DNA of 64,000 nucleotides from Litchfieldia alkalitelluris (GTDB lineage Bacteria > Bacillota > Bacilli > Bacillales > Bacillaceae_L), in the NCBI RefSeq assembly GCF_002019645.1, contig NZ_KV917374.1, forward strand, positions 2,368,696-2,432,695. The letters run 5' to 3'. How positions within the stretch are numbered: the first letter of the stretch is position 1; the number at the start of each line of letters is the position of its first letter. Shown here one piece after another: positions 50,959 through 54,696 of the stretch. A model generated the notes under the pieces. That model was not told where the DNA came from. It did not search any database and saw nothing but the letters and a program-made list of their open reading frames with translations. A program made the position numbers and the translations under genes.

Positions 50959-51666
50959 ATGAAACTAGCAATTATTGGAGCAATGGAAGAAGAAGTAGAA
51001 ATATTAAGAGAACAATTAGAAAATAGAGAATCAATCGAGATTGCAGGCTGTGAGTTTTCAACAGGTACTTTAAATGGACAGGAGATTGTTGTATTAAAAT
51101 CAGGCATCGGAAAAGTAAATGCTGCTTTATCAACCAGTATTTTATTACAGCAGTTTAAGCCTGCATACGTTATTAACACAGGATCAGCAGGTGGTTATTT
51201 AGAATCATTAAATGTTGGCGATGTTGTCATCTCATCAGAAGTTTGTCATCATGATGTAGATGTAACAGCATTTGGATATGAATATGGACAAGTTCCAGGT
51301 CTTCCTGCAGCTTTCGAAGCGGATGCTAAACTTGTTGAAGTCGCCCAGAAGGCCGCACAGCGAGTATCAGACGTTCAAGTAGCAACAGGATTAATCGCTA
51401 CTGGGGACTCATTTATGAATGATCCTGGACGTGTTGAATTTGTAAGAAATCAATTTAACGATTTGTATGCAGTTGAAATGGAAGCTGCAGCAATTGCTCA
51501 GGTATGTTATCAATTTAGAATTCCATTTGTGGTTATTCGTTCATTATCAGATATTGCGGGTAAAGAGTCAGATGTATCTTTTGATCAATTCTTAAAAACA
51601 GCTGCTCGTAATTCTTCAGATTTAGTCTTGAAAATGGTTGCAGAGATAAAAAATTCAATCCAGTAA
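50959..51666 (+). CDS. mtnN: 5'-methylthioadenosine/S-adenosylhomocysteine nucleosidase
   Basis: 235 residues from ATG 50959 (AAAGGTGAT upstream). Starts [20 protein letters not shown]; active-site features [11 protein letters not shown] near 76, [15 protein letters not shown] near 173 and RSLSDIAG near 194. Cleaves MTA and SAH in methionine and methyl-cycle recycling. In B. subtilis it sits in yrrT-mtnN-mccA-mccB-yrhC; here only mtnN and yrhC remain. Confidence 0.95.
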
Positions 51667-51673
51667 TGTAATA

Positions 51674-51709
51674 AACAAGTGTCCGTATACAGTGGACACT
51701 TGTTTTTTT
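51674..51709 (+). terminator. Terminator after mtnN
   Basis: Perfect 11-bp stem AACAAGTGTCC / GGACACTTGTT with a long T run. Confidence 0.85.
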
Positions 51710-51818
51710 ATAGCAATCTCTGATTGATTAATGGAGAAATTTACATCCATTCACCTTAAAAAGAGTGTGTTATGATAGAAAAGAAGTTTGGCAATTTTTT
51801 AGAAGGTGGATGAAAAAG

Positions 51819-52058
51819 ATGGAATTAGATAAAGTAAAAGATTTGCAAGCGAAAATTGCTGATTTTAAAAGGTTTGCCTTTATATTAATTGCTGTTAGCG
51901 TGTTTTTATATATTGGAGTACTTATTCCAAATGAAGGAAAAACATCTCTACAGATGTATACATTAATGGGAACTACAGTCATGTTTCTAAGTACTGCATT
52001 TATTCTATTCAAAACAGTCATTTCATATAAACGTGAATTAAATCAGCTTGAAGATTAA
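51819..52058 (+). CDS. yrhC: YrhC-family small membrane protein
   Basis: 79 residues from ATG 51819, nine bases after AGGTGG; ATG 51810 is too close to that site. Two membrane helices (about 16-36 and 48-66), beginning MELDKVKDLQAKIADFKRFA. This is the YrhC pattern. Linked in B. subtilis with the cysteine-from-methionine operon, but the mccA-mccB genes are missing here. Confidence 0.8.
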   Translation: MELDKVKDLQAKIADFKRFAFILIAVSVFLYIGVLIPNEGKTSLQMYTLMGTTVMFLSTAFILFKTVISYKRELNQLED

Positions 52059-52092
52059 AAAACTCTTCCTTGTTTTTAGGAAGAGTTTTTTT
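52059..52092 (+). terminator. Terminator after yrhC
   Basis: 12-bp stem AAACTCTTCCT / AGGAAGAGTTT with a T run. Confidence 0.85.
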
Positions 52093-52140
52093 GTGTCCAC
52101 AAGGGATGGAAAAAAATATCAATTAAATGCATATTTAGGG

Positions 52141-52169
52141 TTTACAAAGGTATTGTAGTTGGATATAAT
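52141..52169 (+). promoter_or_regulatory. Strong sigma-A promoter of the YrzI micro-ORF locus
   Basis: TTTACA (52141-52146), 17-bp spacer, TATAAT (52164-52169). Predicted start near 52176. Confidence 0.8.
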
Positions 52170-52178
52170 TACCTTTGT
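52144..52178. promoter_or_regulatory. Operator-like inverted repeat overlapping this promoter
   Basis: ACAAAGGTA (52144-52152) is exactly repeated in inverse as TACCTTTGT (52170-52178), 26 bases centre to centre. One arm overlaps the -35, the other covers the start site, so a bound dimer would block the polymerase. Confidence 0.6.
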
Positions 52179-52215
52179 AGGAAAGATTATCATCTAAAAA
52201 AGGAGGTCGAAGTAA

Positions 52216-52317
52216 ATGATCAAATCAACTGGAATCAAACCATGTGTAACATCTGTTCAAACAATTATATATTCAGCATCCTATTCGACCGACCCGGTGA
52301 TGAGTCTGTTAAAGTAA
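52216..52317 (+). CDS. 33-residue micro-ORF with strong ribosome binding site (possible leader peptide)
   Basis: ATG 52216 nine bases after a full AGGAGG (52201-52206). The peptide begins MIKSTGIKPCVTSVQ and has a Ser/Thr/Tyr-rich middle (YSASYSTDPVMS). No family recognised. It lies between the promoter and two terminator hairpins, the usual place of a regulatory leader peptide, but it could be a functional small protein. Confidence 0.55.
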   Translation: MIKSTGIKPCVTSVQTIIYSASYSTDPVMSLLK

Positions 52318-52344
52318 GAATCCGTAATTTAAATTCTAACACAC

Positions 52345-52379
52345 CGCCACAGGAAGAATAGTCTCTCTGTGGCGTTTTT
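52345..52379 (+). terminator. First of two linked terminator hairpins
   Basis: CGCCACAG (52345-52352) / CTGTGGCG (52367-52374), then TTTTT. Confidence 0.75.
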
Positions 52380-52391
52380 ATGTCTTTTTAT

Positions 52392-52427
52392 ACCACAGGG
52401 AGTTATATCTATTCCTGTGGTTTTTTG
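52392..52427 (+). terminator. Second of two linked terminator hairpins
   Basis: ACCACAGG (52392-52399) / CCTGTGGT (52414-52421), then a T run. Its arms are also complementary to those of the first hairpin (CCACAGGAA 52348-52356 with TTCCTGTGG 52412-52420). Confidence 0.75.
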
Positions 52428-52454
52428 TGTGCTTTTTTTGGAGGTGAAATAATA

Positions 52455-52595
52455 ATGAACTTAAACCTATTCTTTTTAACCATTACTATTAAGAAAAGAA
52501 ATGTACCGATGGAAGAGTACGTCCATGAGGAAAATGTCCAAAGGATGTATGAGCAAATGAAAGAACGTCAATATACAATGATAAATAATTATTAG
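52455..52595 (+). CDS. yrzI: YrzI-family small protein, copy 1
   Basis: 46 residues from ATG 52455, eight bases after GGAGGTGA. Hydrophobic N terminus MNLNLFFLTITIKKR and an acidic/basic amphipathic tail (EENVQRMYEQMKERQYTM). Matches the YrzI family of Bacillus micro-proteins, function unknown. The most diverged of three tandem copies. Confidence 0.85.
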   Translation: MNLNLFFLTITIKKRNVPMEEYVHEENVQRMYEQMKERQYTMINNY

Positions 52596-52647
52596 TCAAA
52601 ATAATGATAATAATTAGTTAGCAAAAATCACAGAAAGGAAGTTTTAT

Positions 52648-52758
52648 ATGACACTGAATTTATTTTTCTTAACAATTTCAATCACCAAACGTCATGAATC
52701 GATAGAAGAAATAGAGCATTATGAAAATGTCAATAAGATGTATGAAGAAATGAAATGA
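52648..52758 (+). CDS. YrzI-family small protein, copy 2, C-terminally truncated by a frameshift
   Basis: 36 residues, AAAGGAAG upstream of ATG 52648. Starts MTLNLFFLTISITKRHESIE and stops after EEMK. The sequence ATGAAATGAAAG contains ATGAA twice; removing one copy would restore the frame into the next codons (KDRQYKMFNIY, ending at 52793), the expected family C terminus. So a 5-bp duplication has shortened this copy. It may still be translated. Confidence 0.8.
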   Translation: MTLNLFFLTISITKRHESIEEIEHYENVNKMYEEMK

Positions 52759-52832
52759 AAGACCGTCAATATAAGATGTTTAATATTTATTAATACTTGT
52801 GTAAATAAGAAAGTGAAAGGAGAGGAATGGAA

Positions 52833-52970
52833 ATGACTTTAAATTTATTCTTTTTAACGATCTCAATTAAAAAACGTCATGAATCTATAGAAGAAATTGA
52901 ACACTATGAAAACGTCAATAAGATGTACGAAGAAATGAAAAACCGTCAGTTTTATAACTACCATTTGTAA
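52833..52970 (+). CDS. YrzI-family small protein, copy 3
   Basis: 45 residues, ATG 52833 seven bases after AGGAGAGG (an in-frame ATG at 52827 is too near). MTLNLFFLTISIKKRHESIE is almost identical to copy 2, and the full tail ending NRQFYNYHL is present. A recent duplication of copy 2 is likely. Confidence 0.85.
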   Translation: MTLNLFFLTISIKKRHESIEEIEHYENVNKMYEEMKNRQFYNYHL

Positions 52971-53030
52971 TTACTGGAAGTAAGGTAAATAAGTAAGTGT
53001 TTTATAAAAATTAGAAAGGTGGTAATGAAA

Positions 53031-53090
53031 ATGATTAAAAGAAAATTAATTTTTACAAATTGGCTGCTTGTGGAGAAAGATTCCACCTAA
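53031..53090 (+). CDS. 19-residue micro-ORF
   Basis: ATG 53031 eight bases after AAAGGTGG. Peptide MIKRKLIFTNWLLVEKDST: basic start, short hydrophobic centre, charged end. No family known. Lies in the run of micro-ORFs downstream of the YrzI copies, before one common terminator. Confidence 0.5.
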   Translation: MIKRKLIFTNWLLVEKDST

Positions 53091-53119
53091 CTGATTTTGA
53101 CATAAGGAGGAATACTGAG

Positions 53120-53173
53120 ATGCTATCGTTTCGTGTATTGTTGTTAACTATGTTTTTTAAGAAAAAATCTTAA
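53120..53173 (+). CDS. 17-residue hydrophobic micro-ORF with strong ribosome binding site
   Basis: AAGGAGG (53104-53110) nine bases before ATG 53120. Peptide MLSFRVLLLTMFFKKKS resembles only the hydrophobic-then-basic head of YrzI. It could be a degenerate YrzI or a membrane micro-peptide. Confidence 0.5.
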   Translation: MLSFRVLLLTMFFKKKS

Positions 53174-53185
53174 GTATATCAAACC

Positions 53186-53231
53186 AAGTGCCTAGCACAT
53201 CATTGGAGATCATTTGCTAGGCACTTTTTTC
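53186..53231 (+). terminator. Terminator closing the YrzI locus
   Basis: Perfect 12-bp stem AAGTGCCTAGCA / TGCTAGGCACTT with six T residues. Confidence 0.85.
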
Positions 53232-53349
53232 ATTACTTCACAAAATGGTCAAATAAACTTAACAGTTCGTTCAAATCCACCTTCTTTTTACACCATCGAT
53301 AAATGGTAAAGTTAAAGTAATAACACATTGTCATGGAGGTGTTTGAACA

Positions 53350-53430
53350 ATGTTATCAATCGTTTTAGGACTAGTGATTGTGGTTACAATTGGTTTAATT
53401 ATAGGTACCGAAGTAAGTGTTGAAGGTTAA
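53350..53430 (+). CDS. 26-residue single-helix membrane micro-protein
   Basis: ATG 53350 nine bases after TGGAGGT. The peptide is almost entirely one membrane helix (LSIVLGLVIVVTIGLIIG) with a short acidic end (TEVSVEG). No family recognised; it could be a regulatory or toxin-like micro-protein. Its own terminator follows. Confidence 0.55.
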   Translation: MLSIVLGLVIVVTIGLIIGTEVSVEG

Positions 53431-53439
53431 TGATATATA

Positions 53440-53480
53440 AAGAGGGAGATGACGTTGATACAGTCATCTCCCTTTTTATT
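53440..53480. terminator. Bidirectional terminator between the 26-residue ORF and fluC
   Basis: Stem GGGAGATGAC (53444-53453) / GTCATCTCCC (53463-53472), then TTTTT; the fluC stop overlaps its end. Confidence 0.8.
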
Positions 53481-53832
53481 TAAGCAGGTAAAAGCCGAGT
53501 ATAAATAATATTGTACTACCAATGAAAGATAAAGATACATATATAGCAAGGCTACGATAATGCTTTTTTAAAAGTAAGTCAATTGCTTCCATGCTGAAGG
53601 TGGAAAAGGTGGTGAATGCGCCAAAAAAACCGATTGAAACAAACTGTTGGATACTCGGTGAAATGGTGGGAGTTATTAACGATAAAGTAATCCCTAATCC
53701 AAACGAACCAATAATGTTTACAATTAGCATGGCTAGTGGAAAAGGTGGATTTGATATTCGCTTCATGAGTAGTATTCCAAGGTAGTAGCGAAAAATCGCA
53801 CCAAGAGCTCCTCCTAACCCTACGTAAATCAT
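53476..53832 (-). CDS. fluC2: Fluoride channel subunit FluC/CrcB (second of pair)
   Basis: 118 residues, four membrane helices. GGALGAIFRYYLG at the start and the fluoride-pore motif GFFGAFTTFSTFSME near 72. Fluc channels expel F- passively as dual-topology dimers; when two genes sit together, as here, they usually form a heterodimer of opposite topology. The start is one base after the end of the first subunit gene. Confidence 0.92.
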   Translation of the reverse strand: MIYVGLGGALGAIFRYYLGILLMKRISNPPFPLAMLIVNIIGSFGLGITLSLITPTISPSIQQFVSIGFFGAFTTFSTFSMEAIDLLLKKHYRSLAIYVSLSFIGSTILFILGFYLLK

Positions 53833-54489: not shown

Positions 54490-54526
54490 TAGGGATAAGC
54501 CTACTTGGGGCAACTCCTCAAAGTGA

Positions 54527-54682
54527 GCCTATGATTCAGTTCCTCCTTGTTTTCGCTACGGCAAGTAAATCATAGAGAGTCTATGATTCACTTCCACCTT
54601 GTTTTCGCAACGGCAAGTAAATCATAGAGAGCCTATGATTCACTTCCATCTTGTTTTCGCTTCAGCAACTAAATCATAGAGT
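54527..54682. repeat. Tandem array, 52-bp unit, three copies (array 3)
   Basis: Units start GCCTATGATTCACTTCC at 54527, 54579 and 54631, exactly 52 bases apart. Each has the inverted repeat CTATGATT...AATCATAG. Sequence is unrelated to array 1, but the period is identical. Confidence 0.92.
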
Positions 54683-54696
54683 GCAAAATCAAAATA

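Follow-up and report, generated by a model that had tools for sequence, protein, structure and literature searches.

A conserved leader with predicted alternative Shine-Dalgarno and terminator pairings precedes the yrzI operon of Litchfieldia alkalitelluris

Introduction

The yrzI operon of Bacillus subtilis, which consists of S1024, S1025, S1026 and yrzI, is a target of the ribosome-associated RNase Rae1, and S1025 was the first substrate of this enzyme to be characterised (PMC10632193; PMC11780869). In addition, yrzI appears among the reporters for inhibitors of protein synthesis (PMC7604286), an RNA-seq table for B. licheniformis includes a 301-nt untranslated region for yrzI (PMC3871023), and the operon of B. 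subtilis is called spyTA in the title of a 2025 paper.

S1025 is an ORF of 17 aa, the cleavage of which by Rae1 depends on translation and on the reading frame. In B. subtilis, yrzI lies in the neighbourhood of yrhC.

Two other systems are close to the locus described here. The bmrB leader of B. subtilis is a proven ribosome-mediated attenuator that responds to lincomycin, erythromycin and chloramphenicol, and this response requires the translation of bmrB (PMC4191407). Mutation of whiA (PMC10714963) or rae1 (PMC10632193) raises the mRNAs of yrzI and bmrCD together, and so does depletion of the tRNA maturase (PMC10100781). In Escherichia coli, a toxin-antitoxin operon, topAI-yjhQ, is under the control of the uORF toiL, which responds to several ribosome-targeting drugs. 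However, the available text on toiL describes translation control and Rho termination, and tandem intrinsic terminators are not mentioned in it (PMC12121999).

The operon and its dependence on Rae1 are known already, as are the reporting of translation inhibition by yrzI and, from a title, the name spyTA; our claim to novelty is limited to the design of the leader. Neither a leader ORF nor an attenuator of yrzI was found in the literature searched, nor was the present switch between Shine-Dalgarno (SD), anti-SD and terminator; the main papers on Rae1 (Leroy 2017, Condon 2018, Deves 2023, Gilet 2025) lie outside this literature and may describe the leader. Here we analyse the yrzI operon in a window of 64,000 nucleotides from L. 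alkalitelluris (contig NZ_KV917374.1), together with its leader in related genomes.

Results and Discussion

Layout of the operon

All parts of the operon are encoded by the + strand of the window. A sigma-A type promoter, TTTACA-17-TATAAT (52141-52169; 11/12 matches), was the top site in a promoter scan, the total yield of which (10 promoter-like sites) was not above that of shuffled sequences (12.5 ± 3.9). This promoter is followed by the leader SD GGAGGTCGAA (52202-52211) and a leader ORF of 33 codons (52216-52317; SD of -13.0 kcal/mol). The latter includes CTATTCGACC (52281-52290), an anti-SD segment that is predicted to switch between two partners, the leader SD and the 5' half of a first terminator, T1. 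T1 itself (52345-52374) is followed by a second terminator, T2 (52392-52421), the stem of which resembles that of T1, so that the arms of the two can swap. Downstream of these are three YrzI genes for proteins of 46, 36 and 45 aa (52455-52595, 52648-52758 and 52833-52970; SDs of -13.6, -6.5 and -9.6 kcal/mol, the second being the weakest of the six), an S1025-like ORF of 19 codons, MIKRKLIFTNWLLVEKDST (53031-53090; SD of -8.9 kcal/mol), an ORF of 17 codons, MLSFRVLLLTMFFKKKS (53120-53173; SD of -11.1 kcal/mol), and a final intrinsic terminator (53186-53226). A simple terminator scan listed none of these three terminators. Since the promoter scan gave no promoter-like site on the + strand from T1 to the first YrzI gene, transcripts from the promoter at 52141-52169 must pass both T1 and T2.

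The promoter, the six ORFs with their SD sites, the hairpins and the final terminator had been noted in a previous sequence-only reading of this DNA, and all of them were found again at 52141-53226. The three middle proteins match the YrzI family PF09501 with 58.8, 51.4 and 57.5 bits for copies 1 to 3 (cut-off 23), in agreement with their previous assignment to this family; copy 3 also matches TIGR02413 above its cut-off. No further YrzI copies were detected in the genome at E≤0.001. The proposed single polycistronic unit under leader/attenuator control is also supported. The operon appears to be one transcription unit between yrhC and a separate ORF of 26 codons, and the YrhC protein encoded directly upstream matches PF14143 with 83.4 bits. 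The region 52141-53226 is the yrzI operon that is known, with S1024-S1026, from B. subtilis. The view that it may represent an undescribed system is therefore not supported, the B. subtilis operon being a known Rae1 target (PMC10632193, PMC11780869). Both operons have one or more YrzI genes, and in both there is, or is predicted to be, a transcribed segment upstream of yrzI (S1026 in B. subtilis) together with further small transcribed parts (S1024 and S1025 there); proximity to yrhC and a Rae1 gene elsewhere in the genome are shared as well. The window differs in having three YrzI genes and a fourth, probably head-only, copy.

Copy 2 is ended by a TGA that is absent from copies 1 and 3, and the in-frame similarity continues past this TGA. 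The heads of the YrzI proteins are hydrophobic, and structure prediction gave a weak two-helix model (pLDDT 71.2, pTM 0.34) that was too weak for a structure search. The ORF of 26 codons downstream of the operon (53350-53430), MLSIVLGLVIVVTIGLIIGTEVSVEG, has a strong SD and is followed by a terminator. A similar peptide (MFxIVMGxVITxxIAxIIGTEVSVE) is encoded after the operon in many of the relatives' loci, and no Pfam or NCBIfam match over cut-off was obtained for the ORF in the window. By eye, short imperfect repeats around ctatgattcacttcc...ttgttttcgc are seen at 54515-54690.

Distribution of the leader

Among 60 genomes of relatives, 38 encode proteins that match PF09501. Many of the loci retrieved in this way show the same succession of parts: a leader ORF whose SD is very strong, a pair of terminators with CCRCAGG stems, between one and four YrzI ORFs, an ORF of 17-22 codons with an EKDST-like end and, in many cases, a short ORF at the end. 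Since many loci of the order repeat the succession of leader, T1, T2, YrzI and microORF, the layout is more than chance.

An RNA model of the leader, R1, was built from 23 sequences, all of them yrzI leaders. Within the order, this model has matches in 213 of the 396 genomes examined and in 66 of 135 genera. Matches were also obtained for 43 of 299 genomes from the class, some of which belong to the order itself, and for 20 of 121 genomes of one further family. In the window this frequent element is without an Rfam match at curated scores: a search of 51600-53500 gave nine weak matches, every one under its gathering score. A gapped DNA pattern of the leader retrieved at least 118 stretches in named genomes. 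Among the matches listed (80 loci), the titles were nearly all of Bacillaceae and near relatives, including Mesobacillus, Neobacillus, Priestia, Lysinibacillus and Peribacillus; none of these 80 loci is from B. subtilis. Two of the matches listed, L215 and L243, are in metagenome bins of Planctomycetota and Clostridia and may be due to chance or contamination.

Conservation of the leader ORF and of the SD:anti-SD helix

The leader SD includes GGTCGAA (52205-52211), which pairs with TTCGACC at 52284-52290. RNAalifold recovered this SD:anti-SD helix, T1 and T2 unaided from 23 leaders. In the window, the RNA from 52318 to 52435 folds better than each of 200 shuffled versions (z of -6.43). Across 91 aligned model matches, 95.5% of the cells pair in the helix and the two terminators, with 97.0% for the SD:anti-SD helix alone. 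Changes on both sides were observed for 22 of the 25 pairs, against 10.3 ± 1.8 in shuffles, none of which (0/500) scored as high, and on any of five covariation measures 0/500 shuffles were as good as the alignment. It should be noted that 7 of the 91 rows are antisense or partial matches; these were included in both covariation counts, i.e. the present one and that for the anti-SD:T1 pairing below, and excluded from the later analyses. The latter were based on 85 leaders, namely the 84 remaining rows and the leader of the genome's own BmrC-like operon, which had been found by protein similarity. It should be added that the model used to gather the leaders contains their shared sequence, and that the leaders have a common descent. 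Altogether, covariation strongly backs the predicted SD pairing and both predicted terminators.

An ORF of 19-43 codons is present in all 85 leaders (at least 12 codons had been required). The 18 codons past the start were open in the leader frame of 85/85 leaders, a frame pre-selected for at least 12 codons, as compared to 12 and 22 leaders for the other frames and 20.0 expected by shuffling. The ORF and the RNA are kept, but the sequence of the encoded peptide varies among leaders. The TTCGACC motif occurs in 70 of the 85 leaders and falls in all three phases (8, 20 and 42 leaders for phases 0, 1 and 2), which implies that it is the RNA and not the peptide that is conserved. An arrest peptide was rejected as the main idea for the same reason, since the conserved segment shifts its phase. 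From these comparative data, we conclude that the 33-codon ORF is a regulatory leader.

Two other features of this region were considered. An ORF in frame 2 (52242-52361), which is protein-like and ends in the loop of T1, was not taken as a gene, because the loop sequence GAATAG is accounted for by its complementarity to the anti-SD segment. Around the leader promoter an inverted repeat, ACAAAGGTA...TACCTTTGT (52143-52179), was noticed by eye, of which L009 and L012 have a shorter version. As an operator this repeat was rejected, as by eye it is not alike in other leaders.

Predicted alternative pairing of the anti-SD segment with T1

The sequence CTATTC within the anti-SD segment is the complement of the T1 loop, GAATAG (52356-52361). 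The generality of this relationship was assessed in a ranking test, in which a segment was chosen by its pairing with the SD alone and was then ranked as a partner of the T1 5' half. The test comprised 83 leaders, T1 not being detected in 2 others. In 68 of the 83 leaders, the SD-chosen segment was unmatched by any other block of the leader as a partner of T1. The best partner of the T1 5' half lay at most 6 nt from the SD-chosen segment in 67 leaders (about 14.5 expected) and was not near it in 16, in some of which, as judged by eye, T2 had been mistaken for T1. Leaders located before other genes fit the T1 pairing poorly (other blocks as good: 0.28 for L113, 0.44 for both L111 and L112).

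For the six core pairs between anti-SD and T1 loop, 84.0% of the cells were paired, compared to 77.3 ± 1.0% after shuffling and at most 49.5% when the segments were slid. Both sides had changed in 26 cells, and this count as well as the covariation score were above those of 500/500 shuffles. Two measures were weak, with 68/500 shuffles reaching as high a number of double-change pairs and 17/500 as high a number of pair types; three of the five measures were reached by 0/500 shuffles. Covariation thus moderately backs an alternative anti-SD:T1 pairing.

When leaders were folded up to the T1 loop without a ribosome, the anti-SD paired with the SD in 69/83 leaders, and when the start site was blocked it paired with T1 in 70/83 leaders, neither pairing being formed in the other 13. 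Blocking of the anti-SD itself precluded both pairings in 83/83 leaders, by construction. The anti-SD favoured T1 even without a ribosome in 12 leaders, including L007, L018 and the genome's own bmr-like leader. Once the 3' arm of T1 was out, the lowest-energy fold of the window leader was T1, whether the start site was blocked or free. With T2 out, this fold was one long nested T1/T2 stem ending at a U-run in both ribosome states, in which the 5' arm of T1 pairs with the 3' arm of T2 and the 3' arm of T1 with the 5' arm of T2. Since these longer folds favour the terminator stems, antitermination must be kinetic, acting while T1 is being made.

Rae1 and the last two ORFs

The 19-codon ORF ends with the codons GTG GAG AAA GAT TCC ACC, which can form a small hairpin (GTGGA/TCCAC). 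Among microORFs of related loci, the ending (V/M)EKDST and the codon GAG are almost invariant. A strict microORF pattern, which is codon-blind and accepts E, D or K at place -5, was found in the operons of 51 of the 85 leaders (47/76 of the yrzI type, 4/5 of the bmr type and 0/4 others). The codon at place -5 was GAG in 49 of 54 microORFs and GAA in one; for comparison, GAG made up 102 of the 540 Glu codons of the neighbouring yrzI-like ORFs. The last eight codons of the microORFs fold with a mean of -4.83 kcal/mol versus -2.02 ± 0.24 kcal/mol for synonymous recodings, the microORFs being related by descent and not independent draws for either the codon or the folding statistic. Taken alone, the hairpin of the 19-codon ORF in the window is unremarkable (z of -0.45). 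As the constraint sits at the codons and the RNA, a cleavage site fits the 19-codon ORF better than a peptide alone. Its position and motif make it look like a Rae1-site (S1025-like) ORF.

Rae1 is encoded in the genome (PF05991, E of 1.5e-58). Since a Rae1/YacP match is present in 395 of the 396 genomes of the order, its presence discriminates nothing, and co-occurrence is without power in this respect. The sole genome without such a match, G015, has both the leader and the EKD microORF pattern.

The 17-codon ORF and the 19-codon ORF are not a matched pair. The former resembles the head of YrzI, and L022 has a full-length ORF near the end of the operon that matches PF09501 with 25.1 bits. A 23-aa short form gave no such match. 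Going by these similarities, the 17-codon ORF probably represents a paralogue of YrzI that consists of the head only.

A model for control by translating ribosomes

Taking these findings together, we consider it probable that the yrzI (spyTA-type) operon is gated twice by translating ribosomes, namely by transcription attenuation and by Rae1-controlled mRNA decay. Without a ribosome, the anti-SD in the leader ORF would pair with the leader SD, and T1 and T2 would terminate transcription. A freely moving ribosome would cover the anti-SD while T1 forms, and transcription would again be terminated. A ribosome parked near the start codon, due to ribosome-targeting drugs or scarce charged tRNA, would cover the SD and leave the anti-SD free to catch the emerging 5' half of T1. 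The 3' arm of T1 could then pair with the 5' arm of T2, and RNA polymerase would read into the YrzI genes. By this ribosome-dependent choice, drugs would be expected to induce the operon in the organism. Once read-through has occurred, Rae1 would cut the mRNA within the 19-codon ORF as it is translated, the GAG AA(A/G) codons being the probable site. The product would be small YrzI peptides under conditions of translation stress, which may be toxin/antitoxin-like if the name spyTA has that meaning here. If true, this would provide a molecular reason why yrzI reports the inhibition of protein synthesis, explain the joint response of yrzI and bmrCD in several mutants, and show how a small-peptide operon stays silent until ribosomes stall.

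The same anatomy could be read in other ways. The leader might sense translation initiation (free 30S subunits, cold or initiation drugs) via the SD:anti-SD helix, the complementarity to T1 being secondary. This helix is indeed better supported than the anti-SD:T1 pairing (97.0% versus 84.0% of cells paired). However, in 67/83 leaders the best partner of T1 lies within 6 nt of this very segment, and the bmrB leader responds to drugs that act on the translating ribosome and needs bmrB translation (PMC4191407). We therefore regard initiation sensing as unlikely. It seems more improbable still that T1 and T2 are merely leaky and do not form a switch, with a low constant expression of the operon and the leader ORF as just a small gene. 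Such a scenario is difficult to reconcile with the compensatory changes that preserve the SD:anti-SD helix and both terminators, with an anti-SD that tracks T1, and with a leader peptide that is not conserved while the conserved segment changes phase, even though T1 or the nested T1/T2 stem is the lowest-energy fold of the window leader with the start site blocked or not.

The sequence-only reading regarded the locus as an undescribed set of six membrane-facing micro-proteins. We give this little credence: the operon is known as a Rae1 substrate and, by title, as spyTA, and for two of the six ORFs a role as leader and as Rae1-site ORF is the better explanation. The hydrophobic YrzI heads and the weak two-helix model would fit a putative location at the membrane. 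The count of six such micro-genes is also off, since the 33-codon ORF is a leader, the 19-codon ORF looks like the S1025 ORF cleaved by Rae1, and the 17-codon ORF looks like a head-only YrzI. The conservation of the small peptides in relatives was borne out in part, since forms like the 19- and 17-codon peptides do occur there but the 33-codon peptide is not conserved, though its ORF and RNA are kept.

Related leaders in front of bmrCD-type exporters

Control by a ribosome parked on the leader may reach beyond yrzI. Weaker R1 matches (E of 5.9e-9 to 1.3e-4) head pairs of ABC exporter genes at L160, L161, L163 and L164, with subunits of 585 and 598-672 aa, which we take to be the sizes of BmrC and BmrD. 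A microORF is located between leader and pump at three of these four loci; none was seen in L164. The genome's own exporter operon, which shows 69% identity to L160, also has the leader, and the best NCBIfam match of this exporter was a multidrug ABC transporter model, under its cut-off. By eye, the 5' arm of the terminator in this operon contains GGTCACGA, the complement of the leader segment TCGTGACC. On this reading, the leader of the genome's own exporter operon follows the logic of the yrzI leader in other letters. The exporter pairs are likened to BmrC and BmrD by their size. The bmrBCD operon of B. subtilis has a short translated leader ORF, a terminator before the main genes and competing pairings (PMC4191407), features that are present in or predicted for the leader in the window. 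In contrast, the available description places the terminator of B. subtilis inside the bmrB reading frame, whereas T1 in the window starts 27 nt after the stop codon of the leader ORF, and the window leader has two terminators and controls YrzI peptides.

More tentatively, and with about as much doubt as conviction, we suggest that these leaders may represent a class of attenuators with a wide distribution. In this class, the terminator would carry a mimic of the Shine-Dalgarno region of its leader, by which a single RNA segment could report whether a ribosome is parked at the leader start. As the leader peptide is free to vary, such a leader would respond to slow translation as such rather than to a particular drug. 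The class would serve small-peptide operons as well as, in other letters, bmrCD-like exporters, and microORFs with a Rae1 site would act as a built-in second brake.

Altogether, 12 regions with weak matches were inspected, which included the four exporter pairs, three operons for transporters of the ABC-2 type, one ORF of 1038 aa and one of 396 aa; there was no clear gene in L171. L168 and L170 were rejected as leaders, since neither shows a leader ORF preceded by a good SD, and both matches are probably due to chance. In L165, L166 and L169, a leader-like element precedes an operon that encodes an ATPase of 341-342 aa and further membrane proteins, presumably the ABC-2 type transporters. For leaders in front of such operons, the fit to T1 was poor in the case included in the ranking test (L113). 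Weak model matches also lie before ORFs of 329 aa (L117) and 189 aa (L118), which by eye are phosphotransferase-like and acetyltransferase-like, respectively. Lastly, the ORF of 1038 aa (L162) is preceded by a leader and two terminators, and its leader SD GTTGGACA is, by eye, complementary to TGTCCAA in the leader ORF.
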